Assembly: GCA_032622095.1 (NCBI GenBank)
Contig: CP136066.1
Coordinates: 96,121,319 to 96,185,318 of the forward strand
DNA: 64,000 bases
DNA from: Siphonodentalium dalli
Taxonomy: Eukaryota > Mollusca > Scaphopoda > Gadilida > Siphonodentaliidae
Direction of reading: 5' to 3'
Part shown: one piece after another, positions 44,964 through 61,867 of the stretch
How positions within the stretch are numbered: the first letter of the stretch is position 1
Layout of the letters: each line of letters opens with the position of its first letter
Notes under the pieces: model-generated
Seen by the model: only the letters and a program-made list of their open reading frames with translations
The model's database searches: none
What the model was told of the DNA's origin: nothing
Made by a program: the position numbers and the translations under genes

Positions 44964-45268
44964 AGTAGTAATGGTGGGCACTATGGCCCAGTACCCCCCC
45001 AGACATGGGCACTATGGCCCAGTACCCCCCCAGACATGGGCACTATGGCCCAGTACCCCCCAGACATGGGCACTATGGCCCATGGGCCATAGTGCCCATG
45101 TCTGGGGGGGTACTGGGCCATAGTGCCCATGTCTGGGGGGTACTGGGCCATAGTGCCCATGTCTGGGGGGTACTGGGCCATAGTTCCCACCCTGAGGATA
45201 GATGTTCCTGTCATTGATGTGACATTTCTGATCGAAAAAATGAAAATGGACTTAGAATTATTTTTTTC
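44964..45268 (+). repeat. Polinton left terminal inverted repeat, itself palindromic
   Basis: About 305 bp, mirrored at 61868-62173. The outer part is 3.5 copies of a ~30-bp unit 'gggcactatggcccagtacccccccagacat', then the same units reversed, centred on 'ggcccatgggcc' at about 45078, then a unique part ending 'aaaatggacttaga'. Left end has AGT x2, right end AGT x3. Confidence 0.93.
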
Positions 45269-45333
45269 AAAAGGAAAATCTCACTTTGGAAAATATCAAT
45301 TAGCTATCAAGAGTATCTTTTCGATCATTTGGT

Positions 45334-45349
45334 GGCCCTGAAAAGGGCC
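45334..45349 (-). terminator. Histone-type 3' stem-loop (A)
   Basis: On the minus strand reads AAAAC-GGCCCT-TTTC-AGGGCC-ACCAAATG: 6-bp stem, 4-nt TTTC loop and ACCAA tail, matching the metazoan replication-dependent histone stem-loop. It lies 19 nt after the stop of the gene at 45369-45833. A purine run 'cgaaaaga' follows, as in a histone downstream element. Confidence 0.8.
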
Positions 45350-45368
45350 GTTTTATTTTTGTTATAGT

Positions 45369-45833
45369 TTAGAATCCGCCACATTGAACTTCTTTGTTCG
45401 CCAAAACTTCAATTGATTTGTCTCCTCGCCTCATCCATATTTCGCATTCACAATAATGCTCGTGGCAAACGTGGGGGATCCACACTAGAGGTATTGTTGA
45501 CTTGAATCTTGGTGTTGATTTGTAGCCGCCTTTGGTAGCATCAAACATGACGATAGGTCGCTGTATAACAGTCGCCGCTAATTCAACCATCAATCTTGAT
45601 TCGGCCAAAAGTGGTGTGCGCCGTAAATCTTGTGCCGACGCACCAAGTTCGTCACTCTCTGCGTAGTACAGGTCAACTGCCGCATCTCTCAGAATCATCC
45701 ATCCATCGGTCGTCCCGTAAATTTCGAGGCTGAGTGCCCTCCAAAATAGCGATATTTCTTCACCGTACACTGCTTTACAGTATACCCCACCGCCCATTAT
45801 CTCGTCAAGATCTGTTATGTTTACAGCAGTCAT
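45369..45833 (-). CDS. OTU-like protein, probable catalytic Cys missing
   Basis: A 154-residue protein of the Polinton accessory region. Residues about 24-50 ('YGEEISLFWRALSLEIYG' then 'LRDAAVDLYY') follow the N-terminal pattern of OTU deubiquitinases, where D-G-N-C-L-F normally stands; here no Cys occupies the nucleophile position (Ser appears instead). 'ELAATVIQRPIVMF' and 'IPLVWIPHVCHEHYCECEIW' fit the later OTU strands and the His-Tyr end. If the match is right, this is an OTU pseudoenzyme or ubiquitin binder. It starts at the ATG 45833, whose 5' UTR and first three codons are the same as those of the small gene at 47533-47709. It ends in a histone-type stem-loop and is divergent from the gene at 46736. 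Confidence 0.6.
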   Translation of the reverse strand: MTAVNITDLDEIMGGGVYCKAVYGEEISLFWRALSLEIYGTTDGWMILRDAAVDLYYAESDELGASAQDLRRTPLLAESRLMVELAATVIQRPIVMFDATKGGYKSTPRFKSTIPLVWIPHVCHEHYCECEIWMRRGDKSIEVLANKEVQCGGF

Positions 45834-46735
45834 CTTTGAATGTAGAATAAGTCTGAAGATCCGTCTTGAACATATATCACGATTGCGCGGGCGGTAGAGA
45901 AAGCATATAATACTTTGACGTTAAAAATGACAAATGTTCCCTGACGTTGTTTCTTTTCAGTGCATTATCTGTTAGTTTCACCATTTCGATATGTTATAGA
46001 TTAAATTCATGATAGTATATACAATTAATTAAGATGTTTTAACATATGAATTCATCTTCGTTCATAAACGATGACCAAGTAAAGTTATCAAATGCAATGA
46101 TCAAGAAAAATGTTCAGTATGTTTCTTGTGTTCAGTTTTTATGTATAAAATATGTACAATTCCAAAACCAAAAACTAGAAAAACATTCCATATTTGCCTA
46201 ACGAGGTAATAAATATATCAATCATGTGTACCAAATAATAGATAATGATCTAACGAAATTAAAAACATTTGTTTGATCGCTATGCAATAATGATCAAGAA
46301 AAATATGCATGTTGATCCGGTTCTGAAAAAACACAACGTCAGGAAATATTTGTCAATTTTAACGCCAAAGTATTATGTGATTTCATTGACGCCCGTGTAA
46401 CAATCTTGTGTTCAGTTTTATGTATAAAATATGTACAATTCCAAAAACAAAAACTAGAAAAACATTCCATATTTTCCTAACGAGATAACAAATATATCAA
46501 TCATGTGTACCAACTAATAGATAATGATCTAACGAAATAAAAAACATTTGTTTGATCGCTATACAATAATGATCAAGAAAAATATGCATGTTGATCCGGC
46601 TCTGAAAAAACACAACTTGAGGAAATATTTGTCAATTTTAACGCCAACGCGACATGTGATTTCATTGTCGCCCGTGTCAAATGTATACAAATATTTTCGA
46701 ATTTGATCAACCTTACATTGCATTGCTATCAAGAG
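45834..46735. promoter_or_regulatory. Bidirectional promoter region 1
   Basis: Separates divergent genes. A ~60-bp box ('caacgtcaggaaatatttgtcaattttaacgccaa…tgtgatttcattg.cgcccg') appears reversed at 45886-45949 facing the left gene, and forward at 46334-46395 and 46613-46673 facing the right gene; the second forward copy belongs to a tandem duplication of about 280 bp (46125-46395 and 46405-46673). The stretch 45826-46395 is about 95% identical by eye to 47702-48272. Confidence 0.75.
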
Positions 46736-47219
46736 ATGGATCCGTTAACAGAATTTCTTCAGAGTGAGATATACAGTAATCCTGTTGCACAGAATACATA
46801 TGCGGCACCACAGTCAACAGGCCAAGCTAATACGACAATGACTATAGGTGGTGATACACTCATTTTAAAAGCGATTTTAGATGAACTGAGATGTCTTCGC
46901 AGGGATATTGACGTGAAAACGCAAGTAACGCATCAAGAAGTGAAAGTGAATCTTCATTTCGTTGCAGAAGAGATAGATATACCAATCAGGGTTCATGATG
47001 TTCAGAGATCGAAAGAGCAGAAACAGATCAAAAAAGAAAAAATTATTGGCGGTGAAAGAAAAACAACCTAAGAGTATCATGAAGGCTGAGACAAAAGTCA
47101 GATTTCATCTTCCTTGTAAAGAATCTAAAGATACAGAGAAAAGTGATGAATTCGCAAAAGCTCTCGGTTCTCATGGGAAAGATATGTCAAGATATAAGAA
47201 AAACACAAAACGGTGTTAA
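46736..47219 (+). pseudogene. Accessory protein of unknown function, with a frame change
   Basis: From the ATG at 46736 one frame runs to a stop at 47071 ('MDPLTEFLQSEIYSNPV…'). A second frame, open to 47219, continues with 'KSIMKAETKVRFHLP' and a basic tail. Two facts favour the second stop as the functional one: the histone-type stem-loop sits 22 nt after 47219, as for its neighbours, and the second frame keeps a basic, low-stop composition. The switch would lie in the A-rich run near 47029-47070. It could be an indel, a sequencing error or programmed slippage. 'KVRF' fits the RVxF docking motif for protein phosphatase 1, but a 4-residue match is weak. No known family recognised. Confidence 0.55.
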
Positions 47220-47241
47220 AGTCAGATGATAATTTTAAAAC

Positions 47242-47257
47242 GGCCCTTTTCAGGGCC
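47242..47257 (+). terminator. Histone-type 3' stem-loop (B)
   Basis: AAAAC-GGCCCT-TTTC-AGGGCC-ACACA, 22 nt after the stop at 47219. The downstream sequence 'catttcccaaaaggttactctttcatagctgaaaa' is shared with stem-loop D. Confidence 0.8.
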
Positions 47258-47467
47258 ACACACATTTCCCAAAAGGTTACTCTTTCATAGCTGAAAAATC
47301 AAAACACGATTGTTCAATTCATATTTTATTCAACAACAAATATTTGCAAGTATATTTTGTTTTAAATTATTCGTGGCGTAATTTTTTCAAAACGAAACAT
47401 AGGGTACAAGGAACATTATTAGTTCTTAAGCAAATGCTAAAAGTTTTTCTTTTTGAAAAAATTGGTT
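47258..47467. other. Duplicated 3' region with reverse poly(A) signal remnant
   Basis: 47258-47330 matches 48715-48790, including a minus-strand AATAAA at about 47324-47329 that in the other copy serves the zinc-knuckle gene. No gene remains on the minus strand here, so the block looks like a cassette end left by duplication. Confidence 0.5.
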
Positions 47468-47483
47468 GGTCCTGAAAAGGACC
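47468..47483 (-). terminator. Histone-type 3' stem-loop (C2)
   Basis: Minus strand C-GGTCCT-TTTC-AGGACC-AACCAA; compensated base pair relative to the others (T-A for C-G). A purine-rich 'tcaaaaagaaaaac' follows. Second of two in tandem. Confidence 0.75.
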
Positions 47484-47496
47484 GTTTTTTGTTTTT

Positions 47497-47512
47497 GGCC
47501 CTGAAAAGGGCC
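47497..47512 (-). terminator. Histone-type 3' stem-loop (C1)
   Basis: Minus strand AAAAC-GGCCCT-TTTC-AGGGCC-AAAAAC, 20 nt after the stop of the small gene at 47533-47709. Confidence 0.78.
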
Positions 47513-47532
47513 GTTTTGTACGCCATCAAAAT

Positions 47533-47709
47533 TCACTCCCCATTTTTCTCAGAGTGCGAATTTTGCTTTTGTCCCCCCGCTGTTCTTTTTTGCACGATCA
47601 GCTTTGAACGCGCGGTCACTTCTCTTGCGTGCCTGTCCCACATTATCTGCGGTGTTAGCCCCCTACTTCCTCCCAGTATCGCCATCAAGGGTTCGGGTAT
47701 TGCAGTCAT
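47533..47709 (-). CDS. 58-residue accessory protein, unknown function
   Basis: This short reading frame is supported by context, not by homology. It starts at an ATG in the same 5' sequence ('ctacattcaaagATGACTGC') as the OTU-like gene, and it stops exactly 20 nt before two tandem histone-type stem-loops. The product begins MTAIPEPLMAILGG and has a basic, Gln/Ser-rich tail ('SKLIVQKRTAGGQKQNSH'). GC content is higher than its surroundings, suggesting a different origin or a truncated cargo. The plus-strand open frame covering it (47453-47776) is its shadow. It may be the start of a once longer protein. Confidence 0.5.
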   Translation of the reverse strand: MTAIPEPLMAILGGSRGLTPQIMWDRHAREVTARSKLIVQKRTAGGQKQNSHSEKNGE

Positions 47710-48313
47710 CTTTGAATGTAGAATAAGTCTGAAGATCCGTCTTGAACTTGTATTACGATTGCGCGGGCGACAATGAAATCACATAATACTTTGGCGTTAA
47801 AATTGACAAATATTTCCTGACGTTGTGTTTCTTTTCAGTGCATTATCTGTTAGTTTCACCATTTCGATATGTTATAGATTAAATTCATGATAGTATATAC
47901 AATTAATTAAGATATTTTAACATATGAATTCATCTTCGTTCATAAACGATGACCAAGTAAAGTTATCAAATGCAATAATCAAGAAAAATGTTCAGTATGT
48001 TTCTTGTGTTCAGTTTTTATGTATAAAATATGTACAATTCCAAAACCAAAAACTAGAAAAACATTCCATATTTGCCTAACGAGGTAATAAATATATCAAT
48101 CATGTGTACCAAATAATAGATAATGATCTAACGAAATTAAAAACATTTGTTTGATCGCTATGCAATAATGATTAAGAAAAATATGCATGGTGATCCGGTT
48201 CTGAAAAAACACAACGTCAGGAAATATTTGTCAATTTTAACGCCAACGCGACATGTGATTTCATTGTCGCCCGTATACAAATATTTTCACTTTTTCAGTG
48301 AACTTCATTCATT
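47710..48313. promoter_or_regulatory. Bidirectional promoter region 2
   Basis: Direct duplicate of promoter region 1 without its extra tandem copy. The ~60-bp box is reversed at 47763-47825 (towards the small gene) and forward at 48211-48272 (towards 48314). The box arms form an inverted repeat about 390 bp apart. Confidence 0.75.
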
Positions 48314-48679
48314 ATGCCGTCTTTAAAGAAATTTATCAAGAATTTGTGGAGGAAGAGAGATTCGTCAGAGGAGACGGAGATAAAAAGATATAGGAAATGG
48401 CAGGATTCTCCTGAACAAAAGATAGTTCAGAAGCAGATGCTAAGAGATTTTCTGGCTCGGCGACGACCATCGCCTGAAGTATGTGATCAAGAATCAAGCA
48501 ATCAAGAATCAAGCAATCTTGATCTCGTGGAGATCTTGTCACAGATCAAGAAGAAAGATATGTGCAATGCAGCAATTGACAGCTTCGCTCAGGCTGCTGC
48601 AGCGCACAGATCAAATCCTACTTGGTCTGTGACAATTAATCCCAACGGGATATATCCTGATTTGGCAGAATTTTTATGA
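48314..48679 (+). CDS. Accessory protein of 121 residues, unknown function
   Basis: ATG in 'cattcattATGccg'. The N-terminus 'MPSLKKFIKNLWRKRDSSEE' is a basic amphipathic segment. A duplicated 'QESSN' and a hydrophobic-acidic C-terminus ('GIYPDLAEFL') follow. No transmembrane segment or known motif. Divergent partner of the small gene at 47533 and convergent with the zinc-knuckle gene. It ends 19 nt before a canonical histone-type stem-loop, which supports it as an expressed gene. Its coding sequence is unrelated to that of the gene at 46736, though promoter and 3' end are duplicates. Confidence 0.7.
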   Translation: MPSLKKFIKNLWRKRDSSEETEIKRYRKWQDSPEQKIVQKQMLRDFLARRRPSPEVCDQESSNQESSNLDLVEILSQIKKKDMCNAAIDSFAQAAAAHRSNPTWSVTINPNGIYPDLAEFL

Positions 48680-48698
48680 ATTCTGGAAAAGAAAAAAC

Positions 48699-48714
48699 GG
48701 CCCTTTTCAGGGCC
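48699..48714 (+). terminator. Histone-type 3' stem-loop (D), canonical
   Basis: AAAAC-GGCCCT-TTTC-AGGGCC-ACCCA: exact fit to the metazoan histone mRNA 3' consensus, including the ACCCA cleavage-side tail. 19 nt after the stop at 48679. Confidence 0.88.
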
Positions 48715-48782
48715 ACCCACATTTCCCAAAAGGTTACTCTTTCATAGCTGAAAAAAACAAAACACGATTGTTCAATTCATAA

Positions 48783-48788
48783 TTTATT
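48783..48788 (-). terminator. Poly(A) signal of the zinc-knuckle gene
   Basis: AATAAA on the minus strand, 37 nt after the stop at 48826. This gene, unlike its accessory neighbours, lacks a histone-type stem-loop. Confidence 0.6.
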
Positions 48789-48825
48789 CACACAACATAA
48801 TTTTCAAATGTTTGTATCGATTCGT

Positions 48826-49407
48826 TTATCTGTTTTTTGGAATGTAGAATGGTCTCAGCTTCTTTTTCTTGGAAGTTTTCTTGGAATTTTCAAAATCTGG
48901 ATGTTTATCTTCAGATTTGTTCTGTGAATCATTCGTAGGATCAACAGGTCGGGGTTGTTTGAAAACATCTGATGTTGTAGACATCTCTTCAGTTTTGATA
49001 TCTGCATTTTGTTCTTGTATTGTTACTGCTTGTAGACATTTTTGTATAGTTTTCACATTTTTTTTGTCGCCGAAATCTGTTTTACAATGGAAGGACCAAT
49101 GGGATTCTTGTCCGCATTTGTAACAGTAACCATATGGCGGTTTCCAATTTTTATCAGCTTTGTTTTTCTCTTGTTTCTCTTGCCATTGCATTTTGTTACA
49201 AAGTTTAAACAAATTGGTAGAGATCTGTCTCAATTCGACAAGATTATCTTGAATTTTTCTAGTCTTTGGCTGTGTAAATTTTTTTGAATCTTCTTTATGT
49301 AGCTCAATATAGCTCTCTTCAATAACTGCAGGCCTTGGTCTTTTTCTAACAATATCTTCTTCGCTGGTGGCGTCGTCTGAAACAGGTCTTTTAATTCTCT
49401 TAAACAT
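48826..49407 (-). CDS. CCHC zinc-knuckle protein, N-terminus shared with PolB
   Basis: 193 residues from the ATG at 49407. Residues 1-30 or so ('MFKRIKRPVSDDATSEED', 'RKRPRPAVIEES') are nearly the same as the start of the PolB frame on the other strand, because the DNA is an inverted duplication. This part is rich in basic clusters (KRIKRP, RKRPRP) like nuclear signals. Mid-protein is a C-x2-C-x4-H-x4-C knuckle (CYKCGQESHWSFHC), expected to bind nucleic acid. The C-terminus is charged and lysine-rich. It may help package or chaperone nucleic acid; that role is inferred from the knuckle only. Earlier in-frame codons exist but no earlier ATG. Confidence 0.78.
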   Translation of the reverse strand: MFKRIKRPVSDDATSEEDIVRKRPRPAVIEESYIELHKEDSKKFTQPKTRKIQDNLVELRQISTNLFKLCNKMQWQEKQEKNKADKNWKPPYGYCYKCGQESHWSFHCKTDFGDKKNVKTIQKCLQAVTIQEQNADIKTEEMSTTSDVFKQPRPVDPTNDSQNKSEDKHPDFENSKKTSKKKKLRPFYIPKNR

Positions 49408-49686
49408 TTTTGTCTTGAGTTTTGTCAGCAAAAAATATTGCGACTGGCTTCTTCGGAGTTGAAGTGCTTTTATAGCATTTTCATCGCGAATGCTATAAAA
49501 GCTATAAAAGCAGGTGTAATTCTACACTTTAAACTTCAACTCCGAAGAAGCCAGTCGCAATATTTTTTGCTGACAAAACTCAAGACAAAATTGTTTAAGA
49601 GAATTAAAAGACCTGTTTCAGACGACGCCACCAGCGAAGAAGATATTGTTAGAAAAAGACCAAGGCCTGCAGTTATTGAAGAGAGC
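49312..49686. repeat. Inverted duplication with divergent TATA promoter
   Basis: Arms 49312-49464 and 49534-49686 (153 bp each) are near-perfect reverse complements and include the first ~45 codons of both divergent genes. The 69-bp spacer holds TATAAAAG on the plus strand (49494-49501, 49503-49510) and on the minus strand (49467-49474), a bidirectional core promoter. Confidence 0.9.
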
Positions 49687-52600
49687 GATATGGAAACTGA
49701 TGAGGCAGAAAGTGAAGAGAGCGATATGGAAACTGATGAGGCAGAAAGTGAAGAGAGCGATATGGAAACTGATAGGGCAGAAAGTGAAGAAAGTTCTAGT
49801 GATGGGCAGATTGGACGCGGTCGAAGACAGAATAGAGAAATTGGTGGGAAGAGAAAGAGAAGTCTGGCTAGAGAGCGTGTTGTGTTCAATCCAACAAAAT
49901 ATTTCAAATTGGAGCTGAACTCGGAGAAATTTTCCAGAAAATTTAAATCAGCATCACGACAATTTGGTGTGAAATTCGAGAAATTTACAGATCCAATCGA
50001 AAACATTCCAGAGATATTTGAGAAGTTGACAGAAGAATTGAAACAGAAATGTTCAGCAAATGAGAAGACAAGAATCAGAGTTACGATAAATCATCCAGGA
50101 CTTGATATGAGCATTTTCATTCCATTCACAAAAGCCAGTGAATTGAATGGTGGGACACTCATGGATAATATTCAAAATGTGGTTCAATCAAATGCAGACT
50201 TTACAATTCATGACGGTGCACTCAATTTCGAAATCTTCGTTACAGATATTCCGGAAGGTGGTACACGACACTCACTACATTATGGACCATTTGCAGACAA
50301 GAACAAGCTGACAAAAGTAAAAAGAAGTATTGTCCGGATTGAAAATGCTGATGATGTTATGTGTATGGCAAGATCTATTGTCGTCGGAATGTGTAAGGCA
50401 GATAGTGATGGATCTGCGTGCTGGTCAAAGAAATGGAAAAGAATAAGACAATCAATATACACAGCACAAACAGATGCAGCAAAAAATCTACTCAACCGTG
50501 CTGGCATTCCACACGATACAGTTTGCAGTATCAATGAGTTCCACAAGATTCAAGAAATATTGTATCCAGAATATGTTGTGAAAATTCACAATGAATTTGC
50601 TGGCGCTGGATTTCTATTTGAACCTGCAGAAATGTGTTCGGAGAGCAAATGTGTACACATCTACTACAACAACAATCACTTCGACACCATAACATCAATC
50701 AAAGGATTTCTAGGCACCAGCTACTACTGCGAATTCTGTGACATTGGATTCCATATGCGTGGCGATCATCGATGCAGATTTGTTTGTGCATGCTGGTCAT
50801 TGACACAGTGTAATTTCACAAATTGGGTGAAGTGTAGAACGTGTCGACGATCATTCAGAAGTAAATCTTGTTTCGACAACCATTTGAAGACGGAAGGAAA
50901 ACAGAAAAGAAAAATATGTGATTTGGTTCAACTATGCAACAATTGTGATGAAGAAATTCTCATCAATAAATCAAGCAGACATATATGTGCGGGGTTGAAG
51001 AAATGCAAACATTGCAAAGAAATCGTTGAAGCAGATCACAGGTGCTACATTCCAAAATATGAATCACCGGAAAAGAAACCTGCAAAGATTCCATATGTAT
51101 TCTTTGACTTTGAATGCAGACAAGACACAGGTGTTCATATTCCAAACTTCTGTGTTGCACATACCGCTTGTGGAGATTGTATGTGCAAACCAATCGAAGA
51201 AAAATGTGAAACATGCGGACCGGATTCCAGAGAATTTGTATTCAAGGGTGACAACGTTTTAACAGACTTCACAAACTGGTTATTCCACCAAGATCACAAA
51301 GGATGTGTTGCAATAGCACATAATGCTCAGGGATACGATGCACAGTTTCTACTTCAAGCACTCATACAAAGTGGAATTCATAAACCAGAACTGATCATGA
51401 ATGGAAACAAGATTCTCAGTTTAAAATGCAACAGCGTGAAAGTTATTGATTCTCTGAGTTTTCTGATGATGCCGCTTTCAAAGTTTCCACAAACTTTTCA
51501 GCTGAATGAGATGGCGAAAGGACACTTTCCACATTGGGCGAATTCACCAAAGTTTCAAAATTACATTGGACATTACTTGGCTTCTGATTACTACAAACCA
51601 GACATGATGAGCGTGGAAAATCGAGAGAAATTCTTTGAATGGTACAATGAGAAAATAGAAAATTACGTGATATTCAACTTCCAAGAAGAGATGGAGAAGT
51701 ACTGCAAATCAGACGTGGATATTCTTCGCCGTGGATGTGGAAAATTCAGGAAATACATATTGGAAACAGAACAGATTGACCCGTTCATTGAGTCAATAAC
51801 ATTGGCGCAAGTTTGCAATTTGGCATGGAGGAAGAATTCAATGCCAGAGAAAACAATTGGAATCATTCCAGATGGTGGATACCCATGTGCTAAAAACTAT
51901 TCCATGAAAGCGATACGTTGGCTTCAACATATATCATTGTCACGTATGATAACAATCAAGCATGCTTTGAATGGAGGAGAAATCAAGATTGGTGGACACT
52001 ACGTCGATGGATATGAGGAAGCCACAAGAACAGTTTTTGAGATGAATGGATGTCTGTTTCATGGATGTCCAAAATGTTACAACAACAGACAATACAAGAA
52101 TCCCTATACGATGCTCACCATGGAAGAATTATATACAAGAACTCAACAGAAGAAAGATGAACTGGAATGTCTTGGTTACAGAGTTGAATCAATTTGGGAG
52201 CATCAGATCGACGAAAGAATGAAATCGGATGTGAAATTCAAACAACAAATGGAATCTTTCTACAAACATCGAAACCCCATTTTGCCAAGAGAAGAATTGT
52301 TTGGTGGACGTACAAATGCCATCAAATTGTACGAGGAAATTGATCAAGATTCCACAAAAGAAATCAAGTTCATCGATGTGTGTTCGTTGTATCCATTTTG
52401 CAACAAATATAAATTCTACCCTGTTGGACATCCAGAAATTTTGAGCCAAGAGCAGATCGATCAAGAACACATTAGAGACTATGCGGGGCTTGTTAAATGT
52501 ACAATTTTACCACCATCGAAATTGTATATTCCAGTTCTACCGATTCATTGTAACAAGAAAATGGTTTTTACTCTGTGCAACACTTGTGCCATCAATGAGA

Positions 52601-52770
52601 ACGAGGCATGTAACCATTCAGAAGAAGATCGAGCTATAACCGGAGTGTGGACCACGCCAGAATTATTCAAAGCAATGGATGTTGGCTACAAAATACTTGA
52701 TGTGTACCAAATTGGCATTGGACAGATTGGACAGATGAAATATACAAATCCTATATCGACAAACATCTAA
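49591..52770 (+). CDS. polB: Protein-primed family B DNA polymerase (PolB), N-terminal part
   Basis: Replicative polymerase of Polintons. After a basic start come three 12-residue acidic repeats (ESDMETDEAESE type, about 49681-49790), a virus-type N-terminal region, and a Cys-rich zinc-binding stretch (about 50700-51060). The 3'-5' exonuclease motifs are Exo I 'FFDFEC' at about 51100, Exo II 'AHNAQGYDAQF' at about 51318 and Exo III 'YCKSDVDIL' at about 51700. Motif A 'DVCSLYP' is at about 52374. The frame then leaves homology near 52711 and stops at 52770, so motifs B and C lie in another frame. Start: the position mirroring the ATG of the divergent gene is TTG here (49591); the first in-frame ATG is 49690. 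Confidence 0.9.
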   Translation: MFKRIKRPVSDDATSEEDIVRKRPRPAVIEESDMETDEAESEESDMETDEAESEESDMETDRAESEESSSDGQIGRGRRQNREIGGKRKRSLARERVVFNPTKYFKLELNSEKFSRKFKSASRQFGVKFEKFTDPIENIPEIFEKLTEELKQKCSANEKTRIRVTINHPGLDMSIFIPFTKASELNGGTLMDNIQNVVQSNADFTIHDGALNFEIFVTDIPEGGTRHSLHYGPFADKNKLTKVKRSIVRIENADDVMCMARSIVVGMCKADSDGSACWSKKWKRIRQSIYTAQTDAAKNLLNRAGIPHDTVCSINEFHKIQEILYPEYVVKIHNEFAGAGFLFEPAEMCSESKCVHIYYNNNHFDTITSIKGFLGTSYYCEFCDIGFHMRGDHRCRFVCACWSLTQCNFTNWVKCRTCRRSFRSKSCFDNHLKTEGKQKRKICDLVQLCNNCDEEILINKSSRHICAGLKKCKHCKEIVEADHRCYIPKYESPEKKPAKIPYVFFDFECRQDTGVHIPNFCVAHTACGDCMCKPIEEKCETCGPDSREFVFKGDNVLTDFTNWLFHQDHKGCVAIAHNAQGYDAQFLLQALIQSGIHKPELIMNGNKILSLKCNSVKVIDSLSFLMMPLSKFPQTFQLNEMAKGHFPHWANSPKFQNYIGHYLASDYYKPDMMSVENREKFFEWYNEKIENYVIFNFQEEMEKYCKSDVDILRRGCGKFRKYILETEQIDPFIESITLAQVCNLAWRKNSMPEKTIGIIPDGGYPCAKNYSMKAIRWLQHISLSRMITIKHALNGGEIKIGGHYVDGYEEATRTVFEMNGCLFHGCPKCYNNRQYKNPYTMLTMEELYTRTQQKKDELECLGYRVESIWEHQIDERMKSDVKFKQQMESFYKHRNPILPREELFGGRTNAIKLYEEIDQDSTKEIKFIDVCSLYPFCNKYKFYPVGHPEILSQEQIDQEHIRDYAGLVKCTILPPSKLYIPVLPIHCNKKMVFTLCNTCAINENEACNHSEEDRAITGVWTTPELFKAMDVGYKILDVYQIGIGQIGQMKYTNPISTNI

Positions 52771-53611
52771 AGATCAAACAGGAATGTAGTGGTTATCCAT
52801 TTGGTGTTGAGACAGAAGAACAGAAGCAAAAGTTTGTACAGGATTATTATGCAGCTGAGGGTATAAAATTGGAGAACATCGAGAAGAATCCAGGAAAACG
52901 CCAAATATCTAAAATTATGATTAATTGTATATGGGGTAAGAATGCACAAAGAAATCTTATGTCAAAAACAGAGTATGTGGATAAGCCATCACGTTATTTT
53001 GAATTGCTTACTAGTAACAATATAATTGTTCAAAATGTTACACTTCTTGATGGTGACAAATTCATTCTGGTAAATTATGTTGATATTTTAGATAATATTG
53101 AACCTCATCATTCAGCAAATGTTGTTGTTGCTTCTTTTGTTACAGCGTATGCAAGATTACAATTGTATAAAGTTTTTAAAAAACTTGGAGATAGAGTGCT
53201 GTATTTTGATACAGACAGCTGTATGTATGTCAGTGATCCATCAAAGAAGAACATCAAAACTATCGAAGGAAGATTGGGGAAATGGAGCGACGAACATCCA
53301 GATGCAAAGATTGTCAAATTTGTTGGACTTGGGCCAAGAACTACGGATATGAATACATCAAAGATGGGAGAAGATACACCAAATGTAAGGTAAAAGGTAT
53401 CACACTTGATTACAGCACAAGTCAAAAAGTTAATTTTGAAACAATGGTACAATGTGTTAATGATCGTGAAAATTTCAAAACTGTTGTTGAGTATCCTTCC
53501 AGAATTAAAAGACAAAAGAACCATCAACTAATTAGTGAGTGTCAAACCAAAACTTTCAGATCGGTGTACACAAAACGAAAACTCGTCAATGGTATTCACA
53601 CATATCCATAG
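52711..53611 (+). pseudogene. polB: PolB C-terminal part, split over two further frames
   Basis: Frame 2 (about 52711-53340) carries motif B around 'KIMINCIWGKNAQR' (about 52910) and motif C 'YFDTDSCMY' (about 53203), the polymerase active-site aspartates. Homology then moves to a third frame near 53325-53345 ('YGYEYIKDGRRYTKCKVKGI') and ends at 53611. Two frame breaks mean no full-length product is encoded as sequenced. Both breaks could be single-base indels by mutation or sequencing error; the rest of the polymerase sequence looks well preserved. Confidence 0.85.
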
Positions 53612-54230
53612 GGATGGAGATGTTGAGTCATTTCATGTCAAGATGTTGACAGGAGTAGTACCTCCAGAAATTGCTGAGAAGATTTATGGATATTTGGTGG
53701 CACAGTCAACACTTATTCCAGAGATAAAGAAGGAATTACAAGAAGTCTGGTTTGAAAGAGAAAAGAAAGCAATACTACGATGCTGTGATGTCGACGAATG
53801 TTTACAGAGATTGGACTATCTTGAGACAAGTATATTTTCTCATTTCTCTCAAAACTATATTAAATCATTTATTAAATTCAAAACATTTTTTCTCATTGAA
53901 AGAATATCTGATTTTTGGCTATTTGGTGGTGATCAACACCATTTAGATTTAGAAACTTTTGATGAACATGACTATATTCATTATACAAAGTATGGAGATC
54001 ATTATCCTCTTGCTAGTGGAACCTTTAAATCAGTTCCTAGGATCTATGGGTATTTGTTAACAAAAAAAATGTCAACATATGCAAAAATTCAAAACATTAT
54101 AGGGGATGATTTTTTTATTTACAGAACAAACAGAAGAATAGAAGACTATAATAATTGGATTATTGAAATGTATGGAAATATTTACAGCTTTGGAGATTTC
54201 TCTTTAAAAACTAAATTCACACGTCGTTAA
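53589..54230 (+). CDS. Polinton protein of unknown function, 213 residues
   Basis: ATG at 53589 overlaps the PolB end by 23 nt in a different frame; an upstream non-ATG extension is unlikely to be used. Residues 'HIHRDGDVESFHVKML' and 'PPEIAEKIYGYLVAQST' open the protein, followed by aromatic-rich helices. No catalytic motif, signal peptide or membrane span seen. It sits between PolB and the packaging ATPase, where Polintons often carry a variable gene. Function not assigned. Confidence 0.65.
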   Translation: MVFTHIHRDGDVESFHVKMLTGVVPPEIAEKIYGYLVAQSTLIPEIKKELQEVWFEREKKAILRCCDVDECLQRLDYLETSIFSHFSQNYIKSFIKFKTFFLIERISDFWLFGGDQHHLDLETFDEHDYIHYTKYGDHYPLASGTFKSVPRIYGYLLTKKMSTYAKIQNIIGDDFFIYRTNRRIEDYNNWIIEMYGNIYSFGDFSLKTKFTRR

Positions 54231-54263
54231 GTTCACTCTCTGATTAGGCATCAAAGTGACAAC

Positions 54264-54914
54264 ATGGAAGAATCTTTACTTTTCCAACATCCGTGTAATT
54301 TCTTTATCAGCGGACCTAGTGGATCAGGTAAAACAGAATTTGTTAAAAAAGTTATTGAATTTAAACACGATTTATTCCAAACACCACCAAAGAAAATAGT
54401 TTGGTGTTACAAAGAATGGCAAGACACATACAATCGTATAAAAGAAATTGATAACGTTGAGTTTATTGATGGCATTCCAGACGATGATGAGGAAATTGTA
54501 TCAGATAAATCATTTCCTCATCTTGTTGTTTTCGATGACATGATGGGGGAACAAGATGAAGACAAAATAATGCTTTGGTTTACTAGAAAAGGTCATCATC
54601 GAAATGCTTCAATAATTTACATTACTCAAAACATGTTCCAAAAATCAAAAAGTAGCAGAACTATAAGTTTGAATGCACACTACATGGTTTTATTTCAAAG
54701 CGTTCGAGATAAAAATCAAATAAAAGTTTTGGCTCATCAAATGCAAACCAATCATTTGAAACAAGCATACGAAGATGCAACTTCAATAAATCATGGATAT
54801 ATTTTAGTAGATTTTCATCCTAGAACAGAAAATTATTTGCGAATTAGAACTGATATTTTCCATAAATGGTTGACAGCTAATGACCGAGGTCCTGTCATTT
54901 ATTCAAAAGTATAA
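54264..54914 (+). CDS. A32-like (FtsK/HerA) genome-packaging ATPase
   Basis: 216 residues. Walker A 'GPSGSGKT' at residues 17-24, Walker B 'LVVFDD' at 87-92, and a sensor-like 'IIYITQNMF' at 117-125, the signature order of the vaccinia A32-type packaging ATPases found in Polintons. Expected to pump element DNA into preformed capsids. ATG 54264 follows the preceding stop by 33 nt. Intact, usual length. Confidence 0.95.
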   Translation: MEESLLFQHPCNFFISGPSGSGKTEFVKKVIEFKHDLFQTPPKKIVWCYKEWQDTYNRIKEIDNVEFIDGIPDDDEEIVSDKSFPHLVVFDDMMGEQDEDKIMLWFTRKGHHRNASIIYITQNMFQKSKSSRTISLNAHYMVLFQSVRDKNQIKVLAHQMQTNHLKQAYEDATSINHGYILVDFHPRTENYLRIRTDIFHKWLTANDRGPVIYSKV

Positions 54915-54948
54915 ATTCAGTTGTTGTTACTTTTTTCATTTTAGAACC

Positions 54949-55536
54949 ATGTCGTCCACCGAGATGTTTAGTCATGATGAACTGTCACAAATTATAAATT
55001 TCTTCACTTTTGCAGCTGAATTATTTCTTGAAAATGATTGGAAATTACCATCACAGACAAAAAAGTTTTTTCAGAGAAATAAAAATGTTCTTAAAAAAAT
55101 CTCTGATCGATCAACTGATATGGAAACAAAACGCAAATTAATTTTACAACGAGGTGGTAGTGGGTTCCTTGGGGGAGTTTTAATTAGAAGTCTTTTGAAA
55201 AATTCATTTGAACAAACTGGTAGACAATCTAAAAGTAAATCAAAGGTTTCTCCAAAACGTTCAAAGATTACACTGATGCAAACACAACAAAGGGGTAATC
55301 AAAAAGAATCTAAACGTAAAACAAAGCTTTCTCTAAATCATTCAAAGTTTACACCGATGCAAACTCAACAAAATCAACATTCTAAATTTACACCTATACC
55401 TTCTCAGCAGAACCCTCAACATCAACCGTTACAAAAAAAACCAGTTATTGATCTTGAATTTTCTAAATTTATGCCGTTGTCTGATGCATCGAAATCGGCA
55501 TTCGAAGCTTTAGAATGGTTCAATCAGAAAAGATAA
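54949..55536 (+). CDS. Basic virion-type protein with 'QRGGSGFLGG' segment (paralogue 1)
   Basis: 195 residues from ATG 54949. N-terminal half helical ('DELSQIINFFTFAAELFLEN'), then 'KNVLKKISDRSTDMETKRKLILQ' leading into 'RGGSGFLGGVLIRSLL', a GG-plus-hydrophobic segment. The tail is Lys/Ser/Gln-rich with repeated 'F-T-P-M/I-x-x-Q-Q' units. The core motif (basic helix, then [KR]-G-G-[FS] and a hydrophobic run) is shared with the next gene, so the two are likely paralogues. By analogy with adenovirus precursor proteins, the GG site may be cut by the adenain protease; that is inference. Confidence 0.65.
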   Translation: MSSTEMFSHDELSQIINFFTFAAELFLENDWKLPSQTKKFFQRNKNVLKKISDRSTDMETKRKLILQRGGSGFLGGVLIRSLLKNSFEQTGRQSKSKSKVSPKRSKITLMQTQQRGNQKESKRKTKLSLNHSKFTPMQTQQNQHSKFTPIPSQQNPQHQPLQKKPVIDLEFSKFMPLSDASKSAFEALEWFNQKR

Positions 55537-55592
55537 AAGATGAAACATATAATTTTTCTGCTCATTTTGAGACAACTACTTAGACTGTGAAG

Positions 55593-55955
55593 ATGCCTTC
55601 AAAAACTAAGAGCCGGAAAGTACCGCTGATAAAAAAATATGTGGAGTTGATTGTTGCAATGAGTAAAGTTCCATCTGCATATAAAAAGAAAATGATCAAC
55701 GATGCTCCGAAACAAGTGATGGATTGCATTTCAGAATGTTGTCAAAATCTTTTAAAAGTTAATGTAAAACTGAATGAAGCTCAGAACCGCAAGTTACATT
55801 CGAAGCGTAAACATGTCAGATATCTTGCAGACAAGAACAAACCTTTGCAACAAAAGAAGAAAATTTTGAATCAAAAAGGTGGCTTTTTACCATTATTATT
55901 TCTTGCTCCATTGATTAGCAAAACATTAGGTGCAGTTGTTAAAAATATTTTGTAA
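55593..55955 (+). CDS. Basic protein with 'QKGGFLPLLFLAP' tail (paralogue 2)
   Basis: 120 residues from ATG 55593. Basic helical N-terminus, 'HSKRKHVRYLADKNKPLQQK', then 'QKGGFLPLLFLAPLISKTLG', a GG followed by a membrane-active-looking hydrophobic C-terminus. This combination recurs in Polinton and adintovirus-like elements and suggests a minor virion or membrane-lytic peptide released by protease cleavage; role inferred. Intact. Confidence 0.7.
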   Translation: MPSKTKSRKVPLIKKYVELIVAMSKVPSAYKKKMINDAPKQVMDCISECCQNLLKVNVKLNEAQNRKLHSKRKHVRYLADKNKPLQQKKKILNQKGGFLPLLFLAPLISKTLGAVVKNIL

Positions 55956-55975
55956 AAACTAAATCTCAAATAAAT

Positions 55976-56698
55976 ATGAAGAAAATGGTTATTGTACCAT
56001 TCAGAATGTTGGAAGATTTCAAACAATGGAAAATGTCAGAAATGAATAAACCTCAATTACCTCCTGATCCTGCAATTTCAAATGTTTCAGATTCTTACAA
56101 AGAATTGAAATCAGTTTATGATAAAAATATTTCTGAATCAGAAAAGTCACAGTTATTTGAAGAAAATTTGTACAAATTGAAAACTTCACAAAAATCTTTA
56201 AATTCAAAATTCAGTTTACCTGAACAAAGGTTATCTGAAAACTTTGGGAACATGAGTGAACATATATTGGAAAGTGTTCCATCTAAACTTCGTGGTAAAG
56301 CACAACAAATTTTAACATTGTTGTCAACTAATCCTAAACTTAGATGGGATGATCGTGGACAATTAATTTATGGAACAGAAACAGTTACGGGATCAAATAT
56401 AATTGATTTGATAAACGATGTTGTTCGTCACCGAAAAGGTTTTGACCCAGTTGGTTATGAAACATTCCTACGTGGATTGGGGGAACTTAATGTACCACAA
56501 GATTATGTAGGTAACAGGAATCGATGGTTGTGGATACAAAGACATTTAAAAGAAGGTCACACTGGTGATGAGTTTCATACACATCATGCAACTCCTAGCA
56601 GTGGCAAGTCAAGAAAACGTTCAGTTGATATTTTCACACCTCAAAGTTTTCCTAAAACCAGAAAATCTATTTTGAAAGAATGGTCCCCACTTACATAA
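55976..56698 (+). CDS. Conserved Polinton protein of unknown function, 240 residues
   Basis: Begins MKKMVIVPFRMLEDFKQW. N-terminal half coiled-coil-like and charged; the middle has 'VPSKLRGKAQQILTLL' and 'GSNIIDLINDVVRHRKGFDP' followed by 'FLRGLGELNVPQDYVGN', a pattern I recognise from proteins near the integrase in metazoan Polintons. Basic tail 'GKSRKRS'. Function unknown. Its last codons overlap the start of the integrase frame (ATG 56680). Confidence 0.65.
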   Translation: MKKMVIVPFRMLEDFKQWKMSEMNKPQLPPDPAISNVSDSYKELKSVYDKNISESEKSQLFEENLYKLKTSQKSLNSKFSLPEQRLSENFGNMSEHILESVPSKLRGKAQQILTLLSTNPKLRWDDRGQLIYGTETVTGSNIIDLINDVVRHRKGFDPVGYETFLRGLGELNVPQDYVGNRNRWLWIQRHLKEGHTGDEFHTHHATPSSGKSRKRSVDIFTPQSFPKTRKSILKEWSPLT

Positions 56699-57774
56699 AA
56701 TTTGACAAACTTCTAACTGAAATTTACTACAATCCAAAAGAAGTTGGTGGTTTCAGTGGAGCAAATCAACTTTTTTAAAATGCGAAAGAAACAAATAACA
56801 AAATTAAACTTTCAGATGTTAAAAAATGGTTACAATGGCAAAAAACATACACTTTGCACAAACCAATTGTTCGGAAATTTCGCAGATGTAAAACTATTGT
56901 TGCAGGAATTGATATTCAGTGGCAAGCTGATTTGGCAGATTTGCAAACTTTGCAAAAGCACAATGACAATTACAGATATTTACTTTGTGTTATTGATGTG
57001 TTCTCAAAATTTGCATGGGTTGAAAAAATTAAAGACAAAACTGGTAAAACTTTAGTTAAAACATTTCAGAAAATTCTCAAATCATCAAAACGAAAACCAG
57101 TTTCATTTCAATCTGACAAAGGTTCAGAATTCAAAAATAAATTATTTTTACAATTTTTTAAATCTAAGAAAATTCATTTTTTCACAACAGAGAATCCAGA
57201 GACAAAAGCAAGTATAGTTGAACGTTTTCAACGGACATTGAAAACAAAGATGTGGAAATATTTTACACATAATCAAACTTTGAAATACAATGATGTTTTG
57301 CACGATTTTGTGAATTCTTACAACAAAAGTGTTCATAGAAGTATTAAGATGGCACCAGTTTTAGTAACTCGAGAAAATGAAATTGAAGTTTCCAGAAATC
57401 TTTATGGAAAGTTAAAAACGAAAAAAGATAAGATCTTGAAAGTTGGAGATTTTGTTAGAATAAATAAAACAAAGAGAACTTTTGATAAAGGATATCTTCC
57501 AAATTGGACAAAAGAAATTTTCAAAATTAGTAGAGTTTGTAAAAGTACACCATTAACTTACAAATTAGTAGATTTAGATGGTGAAAACATCGCAGGATCA
57601 TTTTATGGTAAAGAAATTCAACATATAAAAGATAATAAAGTTTACGAAATTGAATCAGTTGTTGGTAAACGTTCAAGAAAAGTTGCTGGTAAATCAGTTA
57701 GAGAAATTAAAGTTCATTGGGCTGGTTATCCTAAAAAATTTGACAGTTGGATACCTGCCACAAATTTGGTATAA
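56680..57774 (+). pseudogene. int: Retroviral-type DDE integrase with chromodomain; one in-frame stop
   Basis: Catalyses element insertion. One frame runs from ATG 56680 to 57774, interrupted only by TAA at 56776-56778 after 32 codons; the flanking codons keep integrase-like sequence in the same frame, so this is a nonsense change, not a frameshift. Catalytic residues counted from 56854: D26 (WQADL), D88 (SDKGSEF), E123 (ASIVERF), exact D-x34-E spacing. The C-terminal ~45 residues ('KVHWAGYPKKFDSWIPATNL') form a chromodomain, which may steer insertion to modified chromatin. The catalytic domain downstream of the stop is intact. Confidence 0.92.
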
Positions 57775-57784
57775 AACTTTTAAC

Positions 57785-58048
57785 ATGTCTCAAAATGGTT
57801 CAGTTGATCTGGATGCTCCATCACAATTTCAAATCTGTGGAGAAAAAATTGCAAAAAATCAAGTAACATATTTTACACAAATTATTATAATTGTTGGTAT
57901 AATCGCTACAGCAATTGTTCATTTAAGTTTACAAAGTGAAAATAACGAACTGTGGTTAATTTTACTCAGTAGTTCTTTGGGATACATTTTACCAACACCG
58001 CGTTTGAAATATTTGAAAAATCAGTCGACAGAAATTTTGAAAGTATGA
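57785..58048 (+). CDS. Small membrane protein with two spans
   Basis: 87 residues from ATG 57785. Two hydrophobic segments ('IIIIVGIIATAIVHLSL' and 'LWLILLSSSLGYILPTP') separated by a short polar turn, then 'LKYLKN'. The 'GYILPTPRLK' end recurs in Polinton-like elements. Likely a virion or host-membrane protein; function unknown. Stop overlaps the next start (ATGA at 58045-58048). Confidence 0.7.
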   Translation: MSQNGSVDLDAPSQFQICGEKIAKNQVTYFTQIIIIVGIIATAIVHLSLQSENNELWLILLSSSLGYILPTPRLKYLKNQSTEILKV

Positions 58049-58896
58049 ATCCTTTCTACATTACAATTCCGAGCGACAGTTCAATGGTAATGTATCCAAA
58101 CAATTCTCAATGTTGTTTTACTGTACAATTACCAAAACCAATTCAAATTGATAAAGAAAAATGGGAAGTTGCATTAGTCGAACTGATAACACCTTCAGAA
58201 ACATACAATGTTACAGGGGATTCGTGTAAATTCAATTTGATTACAACTGATGCAATAATACTGTCTGTTCTTCAAAATCGTTTTGAAGAAAAGATATTTA
58301 CGAGACCTGATGGCGTTCGTGCAATTGAAATACAGATACGAGAAGGTTCGTATACCTCTGCGACAGATTTACTTGATACAATGCAAGATGTAATTGATGA
58401 AACACTTGGAGAAGCAATGCAAAACGAATACGGATTTCACATCAAGTACTCAAAAGTTACAAAACGTGTGAAAATTATTCGCAAGAGTTTACGTATCCCA
58501 AAACTAGGAATTGAATTACCACAATGTCTTTTGCACAAGTTGGGTTACAAAACTGAAAACGCTTCTGAAGATTTTTATTCAAATAGTAGATTTCCGTTTG
58601 GTGTAGATTTGTTTGTTGGTCATAATCAAATGTTTGTTTATTCTGATATTGCTGATTTCACAATTGTTGGAAATGTTGAAGTACAAATTTTACGAGTTGT
58701 TTCTTTCAGAATTAAAAGAGATATCGACGGATTACATGTAAAACATGAATTTTTAAATTTACATTATGTTCCAGTTTCAAAGTCATACTTTGACAAAATT
58801 AGTGTAAATATAAGTGGCGACACAGGAAAATCAATTCAGTTTATTGGTGGTAAGTCTTTGGCGAAGCTGCATTTCAGAAAACGAGAGGAGTTCTAA
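58045..58896 (+). CDS. Minor capsid protein (penton-like, single jelly-roll)
   Basis: 283 residues. N-terminal 'FYITIPSDSSMVMYPNNSQC' followed by 'FTVQLPKPIQIDKEKWEVAL' is the Polinton penton signature: β-strand-rich, expected to form the five-fold vertex. It lies immediately before the core protein and major capsid genes, as in other Polintons. Intact; ATG overlaps the previous stop. Confidence 0.85.
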   Translation: MNPFYITIPSDSSMVMYPNNSQCCFTVQLPKPIQIDKEKWEVALVELITPSETYNVTGDSCKFNLITTDAIILSVLQNRFEEKIFTRPDGVRAIEIQIREGSYTSATDLLDTMQDVIDETLGEAMQNEYGFHIKYSKVTKRVKIIRKSLRIPKLGIELPQCLLHKLGYKTENASEDFYSNSRFPFGVDLFVGHNQMFVYSDIADFTIVGNVEVQILRVVSFRIKRDIDGLHVKHEFLNLHYVPVSKSYFDKISVNISGDTGKSIQFIGGKSLAKLHFRKREEF

Positions 58897-58901
58897 AAAC
58901 A

Positions 58902-59276
58902 ATGTTCCCCGTGTATAGAGGTGTACCACGGCAATATGGTAACGGTATTGGTTCAATTTTCAAATCACTTATGAGATCTGCTGTACCATTTCTAAAACCG
59001 ATTGGTCGGACAGCTTTACAACTTGCGAAAAAACACACTTTTGGTGTTGCAGATGAAATTATTAATCAAGGTAAAAGTCCGAAAGAAGCGTTGATGTCTG
59101 AAGGTAAAAAAGCTTTAAAATCTTTTGGAACACAAGCTAAAAATCAAATTTTGAACTCGAGACAAAAACCTAGAAAAAGAGTAGCGAATTCAAAAATGAA
59201 TCATTCAGCTGTCAAACGCCGAAAAAGTCGGTCGAAAAAACATCCTAGCAGTCGAGCTCTTGATATTTTTGATTAA
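58902..59276 (+). CDS. Basic core/pVI-like virion protein
   Basis: 124 residues. N-terminus 'MFPVYRGVPRQYGNGIGSIF' then 'KSLMRSAVPFLKPIGRTALQ', a Gly-rich start and amphipathic helix like adenoviral pVI/pX-type precursors, followed by a strongly basic tail ('RKRV', 'KRRKSRSKKH') suited to DNA binding. Sits between penton and major capsid. Intact; role inferred from position and composition. Confidence 0.7.
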   Translation: MFPVYRGVPRQYGNGIGSIFKSLMRSAVPFLKPIGRTALQLAKKHTFGVADEIINQGKSPKEALMSEGKKALKSFGTQAKNQILNSRQKPRKRVANSKMNHSAVKRRKSRSKKHPSSRALDIFD

Positions 59277-59278
59277 TC

Positions 59279-60583: not shown

Positions 60584-60584
60584 G

Positions 60585-61034
60585 ATGGAGTTCACATCAC
60601 AGCTATGGAACTACTATGAAGAATACCAACGTTCACAAAACTTTGCTCCGAGATGGAACCTGATCTTGGACACACTCAACAATGCTATGATTGAAGAACT
60701 ACAAGAACTTATTCGCAAGGAAGTGTCAGCAAACTGTGAAGGATGTAAAATAGAACATCCTAGTCAACGTGAACATGTTCTGTGTTTGTTCTCTACAACT
60801 GATGATTGGACAAACCAGTTTATCGACTTAGCGCTGATTATATACAATGTTATGGAAAGATGGTTCCCGAAGCTGATAGGGTTAAACCCACACTGCAAGG
60901 AGAAGTTCGAAGCATTCATCATGTGGGATCATCTGAGAAACAGTTTGGAGCTCAACCGCAAAAAATTCGACGCAGAGTGGACTCTGATGTGGTCACAGCG
61001 AGTCAAAGAGAATAACAACGATGCAGACAGCTGA
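60585..61034 (+). CDS. Conserved Polinton protein of unknown function, 149 residues
   Basis: Starts MEFTSQLWNYYEEYQ. A Cys/His cluster 'CEGCKIEHPSQREHVLC' may bind metal. Helical, Trp-rich C-terminal half ('IMWDHLRNSLEL'). Lies between capsid and protease genes and overlaps the protease start by 14 nt. No enzymatic motif. Confidence 0.65.
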   Translation: MEFTSQLWNYYEEYQRSQNFAPRWNLILDTLNNAMIEELQELIRKEVSANCEGCKIEHPSQREHVLCLFSTTDDWTNQFIDLALIIYNVMERWFPKLIGLNPHCKEKFEAFIMWDHLRNSLELNRKKFDAEWTLMWSQRVKENNNDADS

Positions 61035-61494: not shown

Positions 61495-61867
61495 ACTTCA
61501 CCAGGACATCGACGGCTGATATACATACAACGCAAAGAAGACGACGACCAGATAACAACGAATGTGTCAACAACTCCACAAAATAGACTCTTTTGTTATT
61601 GATTCAGCGTAGGATCTTGTAGGATGTTGTAGGATGTTCAATTAAGTTTCTTCAAATCTGAGACCTTGTTTTGTACATAAATTATTGTTCTTTGTTAATA
61701 TTATTGATGTATAATAATATATTATTGTTCATTGTTCTTGTTCTTGTTTTTGAAAAATAAATGATAAATTTCAACAAAATCGTTTTCACTGTAGGACCCC
61801 CACCAATTGATTCTGTTCGTGTCGATGTGTCATCTCTGGTCAGAATTATACAAACTTTAAATTAATA
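61495..61867. other. 3' flank of the late gene block
   Basis: Non-coding, T-rich, with a 'ataataatatattattgttcattgttcttgttcttg' stretch and the poly(A) signal below. Confidence 0.6.
61756..61761 (+). terminator. Poly(A) signal of the Polinton + strand genes
   Basis: AATAAA about 260 nt after the protease stop; no histone-type stem-loop is present in this half of the element. Confidence 0.55.

Follow-up and report, generated by a model that had tools for sequence, protein, structure and literature searches.

Histone-type 3' stem-loops follow four genes of a Polinton family in the scaphopod Siphonodentalium dalli

A stretch of 64,000 nucleotides of the Siphonodentalium dalli genome (assembly GCA_032622095.1, contig CP136066.1, positions 96,121,319 to 96,185,318 of the forward strand; called the window here, with positions counted from its first letter) contains a mobile element in which four genes are followed by hairpins of the type that ends histone mRNAs. 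The element is a Polinton. It spans positions 44964-62173 (17,210 bp), and its membership of this group, put forward in a preliminary description of the window, is borne out by the target duplication, the terminal repeats, and the genes for pPolB, an integrase and an ATPase. It shares with Polinton/Maverick elements the 6-bp duplication, terminal repeats starting with AG (a combination which we take to be a Polinton feature), pPolB, the rve-chromo integrase, the A32 ATPase and, as a candidate only, a protease-like gene, and differs from them in its histone-type gene ends. The part between the left terminus and pPolB is taken up by gA/gA2 and gB1/gB2, two pairs of divergent genes arranged around partly duplicated intergenic regions. 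A histone hairpin follows these four genes and no others in the window.

The exact pattern GGYYYTTTTCARRRCC was found five times in the 64 kb, compared with no match in 100 dinucleotide shuffles, and the five matches are the hairpins of the preliminary description, at the same coordinates and on the same strands (Table 1). Each folds alone into a six-pair stem with a four-base loop, with an energy of -11.4 or -9.3 kcal/mol; on comparison with 200 shuffles each, this energy was equalled by 4/200 for the hairpin at 45334 and by none for the other four. Measured on the sense strand, the hairpins lie 19, 22, 20 and 19 nt after the stops of gA, gA2, gB1 and gB2, the same values as had been proposed, and this spacing was the same in most copies of the element (the window and 11 other stretches of the genome, introduced below). 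The arrangement of four genes, one of them with two hairpins, also stood, with the refinement that gA2 is broken into two overlapping frames in the window copy; 7 of the 11 other stretches have a single frame of 162-180 aa, with 22 nt separating its stop from the hairpin. The sequence ACCCA is present directly after the hairpin at 48699 (H4), and the compensated base pair that had been noticed is real, with GGC..GCC in four hairpins and GGU..ACC at 47468-47483 (H3b).

All hairpins were scored with the Rfam RF00032 Histone3 covariance model, which has a gathering score of 34 bits. Scoring with this model had been suggested as a check, and it favoured four of the five hairpins (H1, H2, H3b and H4, 37.1-40.8 bits), while H3a, at 23.4 bits, fell below gathering. 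Besides these five, no further Histone3 match was listed in the window at E values up to 5. The element's gene ends thus have the six-pair stem, the four-base loop, AAAC before the hairpin, ACC(C)A after the best ones and candidates for a downstream element in common with the histone mRNA 3' end (RF00032); they differ from it in being placed on non-histone genes of a mobile element, where processing of the histone type is predicted.

Table 1. Features of the Polinton element in the window, with the hairpins and the genes that they follow given first
Feature	Position	Strand	Remarks
Hairpin H1	45334..45349	-	19 nt past gA stop; Histone3 37.8 bits (45354-45309)
Hairpin H2	47242..47257	+	22 nt past gA2 stop; Histone3 40.1 bits (47237-47281)
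Hairpin H3a	47497..47512	-	20 nt past gB1 stop; exact hairpin; Histone3 23.4 bits (47517-47489), below gathering
Hairpin H3b	47468..47483	-	13 nt after H3a; compensated pair; Histone3 37.1 bits (47488-47442)
Hairpin H4	48699..48714	+	19 nt past gB2 stop; Histone3 40.8 bits (48694-48738)
Candidate downstream element of H1 (AAAAGATACTC)	45311..45321	-	putative, from comparison with host 3' ends
Candidate downstream element of H2 (AAAAGGTTACTC)	47271..47282	+	putative, from comparison with host 3' ends
Candidate downstream element of H3b (AAAAAGAAAAACT)	47442..47454	-	close to host AAAAAGAGAAACT
Candidate downstream element of H4 (AAAAGGTTACTC)	48728..48739	+	diversity 0.009, compared with 0.069 in spacer
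gA	45369..45833	-	154 aa; no Pfam match; pN/pS 0.48 in 9 copies
gA2	46736..47219	+	two overlapping frames here (46736-47071, 46995-47219); Pfam matches only sub-threshold
gB1	47533..47709	-	58 aa in this copy and 58-97 aa elsewhere; Pfam search negative
gB2	48314..48679	+	121 aa; no Pfam or PDB sequence match; at least 150 genomic matches
Putative divergent promoter region A	45834..46735		repeats D1, D3, D5, I5, I9; partly near-duplicate in B
Putative divergent promoter region B	47710..48313		repeats D1, D3, D5, I8
Polinton element	44964..62173		CCCGCG duplication at 44958-44963 and 62174-62179; termini 5'-AGTAGT
Left terminal inverted repeat	44964..45269	+	about 306 bp, 97% to right repeat
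Right terminal inverted repeat	61869..62170	-	repeat comparison with left
CCHC-like gene	48826..49407	-	CCHC zinc-knuckle match below threshold; AATAAA 37 nt past stop; lacks a hairpin
pPolB frame	49690..52770	+	PF03175, E 1.3e-32
A32-type packaging ATPase	54264..54914	+	PF04665, 8.3e-9, above cut-off
Integrase, rve and chromo domain	56779..57774	+	PF00665, 6.8e-12; PF00385, 1.4e-5
Capsid-like gene	59279..60583	+	tblastn 2e-48 to L091 (other Polinton, same genome); no Pfam match
Adenovirus-like protease candidate	61021..61494	+	PF00770, E 0.0005, 20.2 bits, just below 21.3 cut-off

The host genome (2.23 Gb in 9 contigs) gave 409,530 first-look candidates for the Histone3 model, and the best 75 were scored, all of which lay above gathering. 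Sixty-three of these best 75 matches fall in tandem arrays on contigs C5 and C8, and the other 12 all belong to the Polinton family of the window; this division between arrays and Polintons speaks for the top of the ranked list only. The 12 non-array matches are covered by 11 stretches, two of which (L041 and L042) adjoin, and all 11 bear the genes of this Polinton. Where open reading frames were read in the arrays (L008, L010 and L045), the hairpins follow histone H4, H2B and H2A genes. Their scores were of the same order as those in the element family, with 40.8-42.4 bits for 9 host matches in two sampled array stretches and 34.8-44.2 bits for 35 matches in the 11 other stretches of the family.

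Identity between host and element extends to the hairpin itself, as the core GGCCCTTTTCAGGGCC is the same in the host histone H4, H2A and H2B genes and in four element hairpins; the core of H3b is GGTCCTTTTCAGGACC, which carries the compensated pair relative to the host core. Host 3' ends are laid out as AAAC, the core GGCCCTTTTCAGGGCC, ACC(C)AAA, then AAAAAGAGAAACT or relatives of it, and then ATTGCT. In blastn comparisons with host histone 3' ends, the matches of H1, H2, H3b and H4 were 37-57 nt long and 84-95% identical (lowest E value 3e-12), with similarity running past the hairpin by 20 nt at H1, 17 nt at H2, 35 nt at H3b and 17 nt at H4. Only H3b matches the host through the whole downstream element (AAAAAGAAAAACT), with ATTGCT further on in most copies, and the match of H3a covers only 18-25 nt in total. 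The distance from stop to hairpin is 31 nt in host H2A and 35 nt in host H4. The histone-type nature of the hairpins, asserted in the preliminary description, is therefore upheld by the covariance model, by identity with host hairpins, by the downstream similarity, by the many copies and by the presence of a host SLBP gene. It is likely that this Polinton family took over 3' ends from the replication-dependent histone genes of its host, and that they now serve as 3'-end signals of the four small left-end genes.

Polintons and virophages are related, and this relatedness lends some weight to a different origin of the hairpins, in which they would be of a viral type, cut and then polyadenylated as in mimivirus, with the likeness to histone ends due to convergence. 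The mRNAs of Mimiviridae are reported to be polyadenylated at hairpin-forming palindromes (PMC4402537), and hairpins thus mark viral transcript ends there as they would here; the difference is that polyadenylation by viral enzymes is involved in that system, and that the window Polinton has a hairpin of the host histone type. We consider such an origin scarcely credible, given that the core is the same as that of host histone hairpins, that downstream sequence is shared with the host, and that only four genes carry a hairpin. Moreover, no poly(A) polymerase or RNase III was seen among the Pfam matches of the scanned open reading frames, several of which had no match at all.

A search of the genome with the gB2 protein gave 508 first-look candidates and at least 150 near-intact copies, which are 88-100% identical, 8 of them with an internal stop. 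Many gB2 copies had identical scores, as expected of a recent burst of one Polinton family. Since the first 11 stretches had been found via their hairpins, a second sample was picked by the gB2 protein: 20 loci were chosen by hand across the identity range from the best 150 gB2 matches, all full-length, and their 3' ends were compared. The gB2 hairpin with ACCCA was found in 19/19 readable copies of this sample, and the same downstream element in 18. In the H2/H3 region of the 20 loci, H3a and H3b could be aligned in 18 and H2 in 12, and 19/20 stretches had one or more exact hairpins. One copy, L084, shows a local duplication of the gB1 end, with about 280 nt between its two H3a/H3b tandem pairs. 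The adjoining stretches L041 and L042 contain neighbouring pieces of at least two elements: pPolB and CCHC matches are repeated there, and L041 has two H4 hairpins.

The high copy number (at least 150 gB2 matches) and the tandem hairpins after gB1 would also suit a role as a decoy or at the level of DNA, in which SLBP is titrated away by the transcripts, or replication or recombination makes use of the palindromes. The placement of the hairpins on the sense strand after stop codons and the host-like sequence downstream speak against this explanation, as do the ratios of nonsynonymous to synonymous polymorphism (pN/pS), which are below 0.5 for three of the genes, and we regard it as very improbable. 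Among copies, pN/pS was 0.48 for gA, 0.46 for gA2 and 0.39 for gB2, compared with 0.94 for the CCHC-like gene (point values without a significance test); by these values, the three genes look constrained during the spread of the family.

Within the hairpins, 326 of 330 base pairs were standard (55 hairpins aligned over their full length, from the window and the 11 stretches). In the protein-picked copies and 10 more, with bins defined by us, the mean pairwise difference at H4 was 0.004 for the hairpin itself, 0.000 for ACCCA (the cleavage box) and 0.009 for the downstream element, compared with 0.069 in the spacer; it was 0.037 at the coding end and 0.027 further downstream. Diversity of the hairpin was below that of the flanks at H2, H3a and H4. 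When the five classes were pooled, sites variable in more than one copy amounted to 1/80 in hairpins and 48/580 in flanks chosen by us (Fisher p 0.021), and the single such site in a hairpin keeps a G-U pair.

SLBP-bound histone mRNAs are coupled to S phase. We lean towards the view that the element takes over the histone mRNA pathway for non-histone genes, which would yield tail-less, replication-coupled transcripts and allow the host S phase to be read through SLBP. In such a scheme the Polinton family would have captured 3' ends of host histone genes, host SLBP would bind the hairpin of the element, the U7 particle would recognise the downstream element, and the nascent mRNA would be cut about 5 nt after the hairpin without addition of poly(A). 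By extension, and because of the known biology of SLBP, S phase might be the main time at which the mRNAs of gA, gA2, gB1 and gB2 are produced, leave the nucleus and undergo translation, a replicating nucleus then being open to use by the polymerase of the element. Processing by SLBP and U7 and tail-less, S-phase-limited expression are in this way what we infer from the gene ends. In the host genome, two exons matched the SLBP family PF15247, one with 60.6 bits and the other, whose matched stretch includes a stop, with 31.4 bits, and the open frames contain TPDKYQKTSRRSWD-type sequence, which we take to be the RNA-binding signature of SLBP.

Several observations weigh against this reading, which is drawn from DNA sequence. 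H2 and H4 are not independent, as a nearly identical 62-nt block is common to both. L034 and L035, both with a truncated gB2 match, lack the H4 hairpin, L038 lacks the H2 and H3 hairpins, L041 lacks H1, and no hairpin was found in the H2/H3 region of L082 (1/20 stretches). Hairpin diversity was not clearly lower than that of its surroundings at H1 (0.021, compared with 0.019 in coding sequence) or at H3b (0.033, compared with 0.028 far downstream), and the region downstream of H1 is variable (nucleotide diversity 0.076). Without the gB1 end, which holds 19/48 of the variable flank sites, the comparison of variable sites became 1/64 in hairpins and 29/500 in flanks (p 0.24), and for H4 alone it was 0/16 and 10/145 (p 0.60). 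As the copies are too young for a firm test, conservation of the hairpins at the level of sites is suggestive only, and the functional reading depends mainly on placement, spacing, identity with the host and the multi-part nature of the signal, not on the conservation statistic.

The same youth of the copies, and a conservation contrast that is not significant once gB1 is removed, would be expected if the hairpins were inert relics, with histone 3' flanks captured by recombination with the arrays, hairpins hitchhiking along with them, and the genes ending at ordinary poly(A) sites. The similarity with host histone 3' flanks and the AATAAA sequences near gA and 202 nt after gB1 are consistent with such an account, and captured pieces of host rRNA in other Polinton-like viruses have been judged probably non-functional (PMC12220804). 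It is nevertheless unlikely in our judgement: on each strand hairpins follow gene ends, four genes in all, with a spacing of 19-22 nt, and this placement and spacing make the status of relics less likely; at H4 the spacer is more variable than the parts that it separates, namely the hairpin, the cleavage box and the downstream element; and H3b has a compensated pair.

Further counter-evidence to processing by SLBP and U7 came from the machinery and from poly(A) signals. A search of the genome with the Rfam U7 model gave nothing, and the control gave no match either. The complement of the host H2B element was used as a proxy for U7, and it paired better than shuffles only with the downstream element of H3b, where 0.6% of shuffles and 6.2% of genomic 40-mers were as good; the downstream elements of H1, H2 and H4 paired with it no better than shuffles. 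This result weighs against a uniform U7 model, the stand-in being a crude one. The proposal of SLBP/U7 processing is thus strengthened by the host SLBP gene and weakened by the negative result of the U7 search and by the downstream elements, of which only 1/4 paired better than shuffles with the proxy. The sequences AATAAA and ATTAAA were absent within 400 nt after gA2 and gB2, a lack that is not distinctive, as 6/12 other genes checked are also without one within that distance. An AATAAA stands 11 nt past the stop of gA, directly before hairpin H1, and another at 202 nt past the stop of gB1, so that either gene could be processed either way.

These two signals, one beside H1 and one after gB1, raise the possibility of dual processing, which overlaps with takeover of the histone pathway: the ends would be of the histone type when SLBP and U7 are present, and polyadenylated otherwise. 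Overlapping signals of this kind have been described for human histone pre-mRNA (PMC9756948). Set against dual processing is that neither gA2 nor gB2 has a poly(A) signal in the next 400 nt, and we hold dual processing to be doubtful, albeit worth keeping in view. The CCHC-like gene and the core genes, which have no hairpin, probably use ordinary poly(A) signals; such a signal lies 261 nt after the last core gene.

Upstream of the hairpin genes, TTTGGCGTTAAAA with 0-1 mismatch was found at only five places in the 64 kb, all at putative promoter cores (45914, 46357, 46636, 47790 and 48235). A link to E2F by way of this motif, which has some likeness to an E2F site, is only a lead and was set aside, for the strict E2F site TTTSSCGC is absent from both gene cassettes, a further point against the main reading, the motif lies within repeats, and a near match also occurs in the host stretch L044. 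Comparison of the element with host histone promoters revealed no convincing similarity.

A genome search with pPolB showed that at least two further Polinton families are present, in which pPolB is a long open frame of about 952 aa or about 1312-1324 aa. The flanks of one locus for each of two such families (C2:222.98M and C9:149.53M; L088-L091; 34 kb) contain core genes 24-42% identical to those of the window, and no Histone3 match at gathering was obtained there (one locus each, 34 kb, with incomplete ends); L089 has one degenerate hairpin look-alike without the flanks. Since the sampled loci of these two families had no match, the histone ends are probably an acquisition of the family in the window. 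The check for hairpins in related Polintons, which had also been suggested, accordingly turned out well for copies of the family and poorly at the two sampled loci beyond it.

Outside this genome, a pattern scan of viral contigs for the hairpin gave 2 matches, neither at Rfam gathering; both lie on contigs of phage type by their open reading frames and were read as chance. No relatives were detected among the viral contigs by pPolB, the capsid-like gene or the ATPase, using short peptide patterns that find close relatives only, and neither gA nor the DNA of the cassettes had a match in a phage collection. In SARS-CoV-2, a stretch labelled Histone3 (PMC7786107) has a score of 14.7 bits, far below gathering, and was dismissed. 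A 2025 survey of 8300 Polinton-like and virophage genomes lists six histone 3' untranslated region stem-loops at Rfam gathering, none of them in 1107 cryptophyte elements (PMC12220804). Its main text names histone stem-loops once, in a list, without analysis (PMC12220804); those stem-loops resemble the present ones in being Rfam matches at gathering in related genomes, and differ in that the mention comes without host, gene position, number per element or role. The preliminary description knew of no earlier report, which has to be qualified by these six matches. Searches of the open-licence PMC literature brought up no account of an element of this sort that has histone-type ends on several of its genes or makes use of SLBP.

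The histone stem-loop is described in PMC6303110 as exclusive to replication-dependent histone mRNAs. If our reading is right, the window holds a natural hijack of replication-coupled mRNA metabolism by a mobile, virus-like element. It would then explain how a Polinton can be timed to S phase, and its gene ends would serve as independent natural tests that tell the needed parts of the signal from the others. It would also be, to our knowledge, the first natural non-histone use of the histone 3' end, and one that arose within Polintons by capture. As a single genome has at least 150 near-intact copies of gB2, the proposal is testable directly in ordinary RNA data.

The proteins of the hairpin genes gave few clues. 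No Pfam match was obtained for gA and gB2 at E 10 or for gB1 at E 1, and a PDB sequence search returned only marginal ribosomal-protein matches for gA (E 0.8) and none for gB2. A structure prediction for gA made without an alignment was useless (predicted local distance difference test score, pLDDT, 35), and a faint likeness of gA to OTU proteases was given no weight. Among the core genes, the candidate for the double jelly-roll capsid protein of Polintons is the gene at 59279..60583, whose name capsid-like is our own presumption, and the protease candidate at 61021..61494 matched a gene of another Polinton in the genome (tblastn 4e-14). The pPolB frame closes at 52770 and an overlapping frame at 52701-53393 carries the protein on, so that it is split or disrupted in this copy. 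A 98% inverted repeat (49304-49465 and 49533-49694, with 67 nt between the arms) gives the CCHC-like gene on the minus strand and the pPolB frame on the plus strand the same N-terminal peptide (KRIKRPVSDDATSEEDIVRKRPRPAVIEES). The terminal repeats at 44964-45269 and 61869-62170 are made up of tandem and palindromic units of about 30 bp (GGGGGGTACTGGGCCATAGTGCCCATGTCT), which results in a hairpin-rich end. Outer inverted repeats at 43656-43742 and 63668-63754 flank the insertion at a distance of about 20 kb, perhaps as parts of other mobile elements, and to the right of the insertion an 80-nt palindrome (63201-63363) perhaps belongs to another mobile element.

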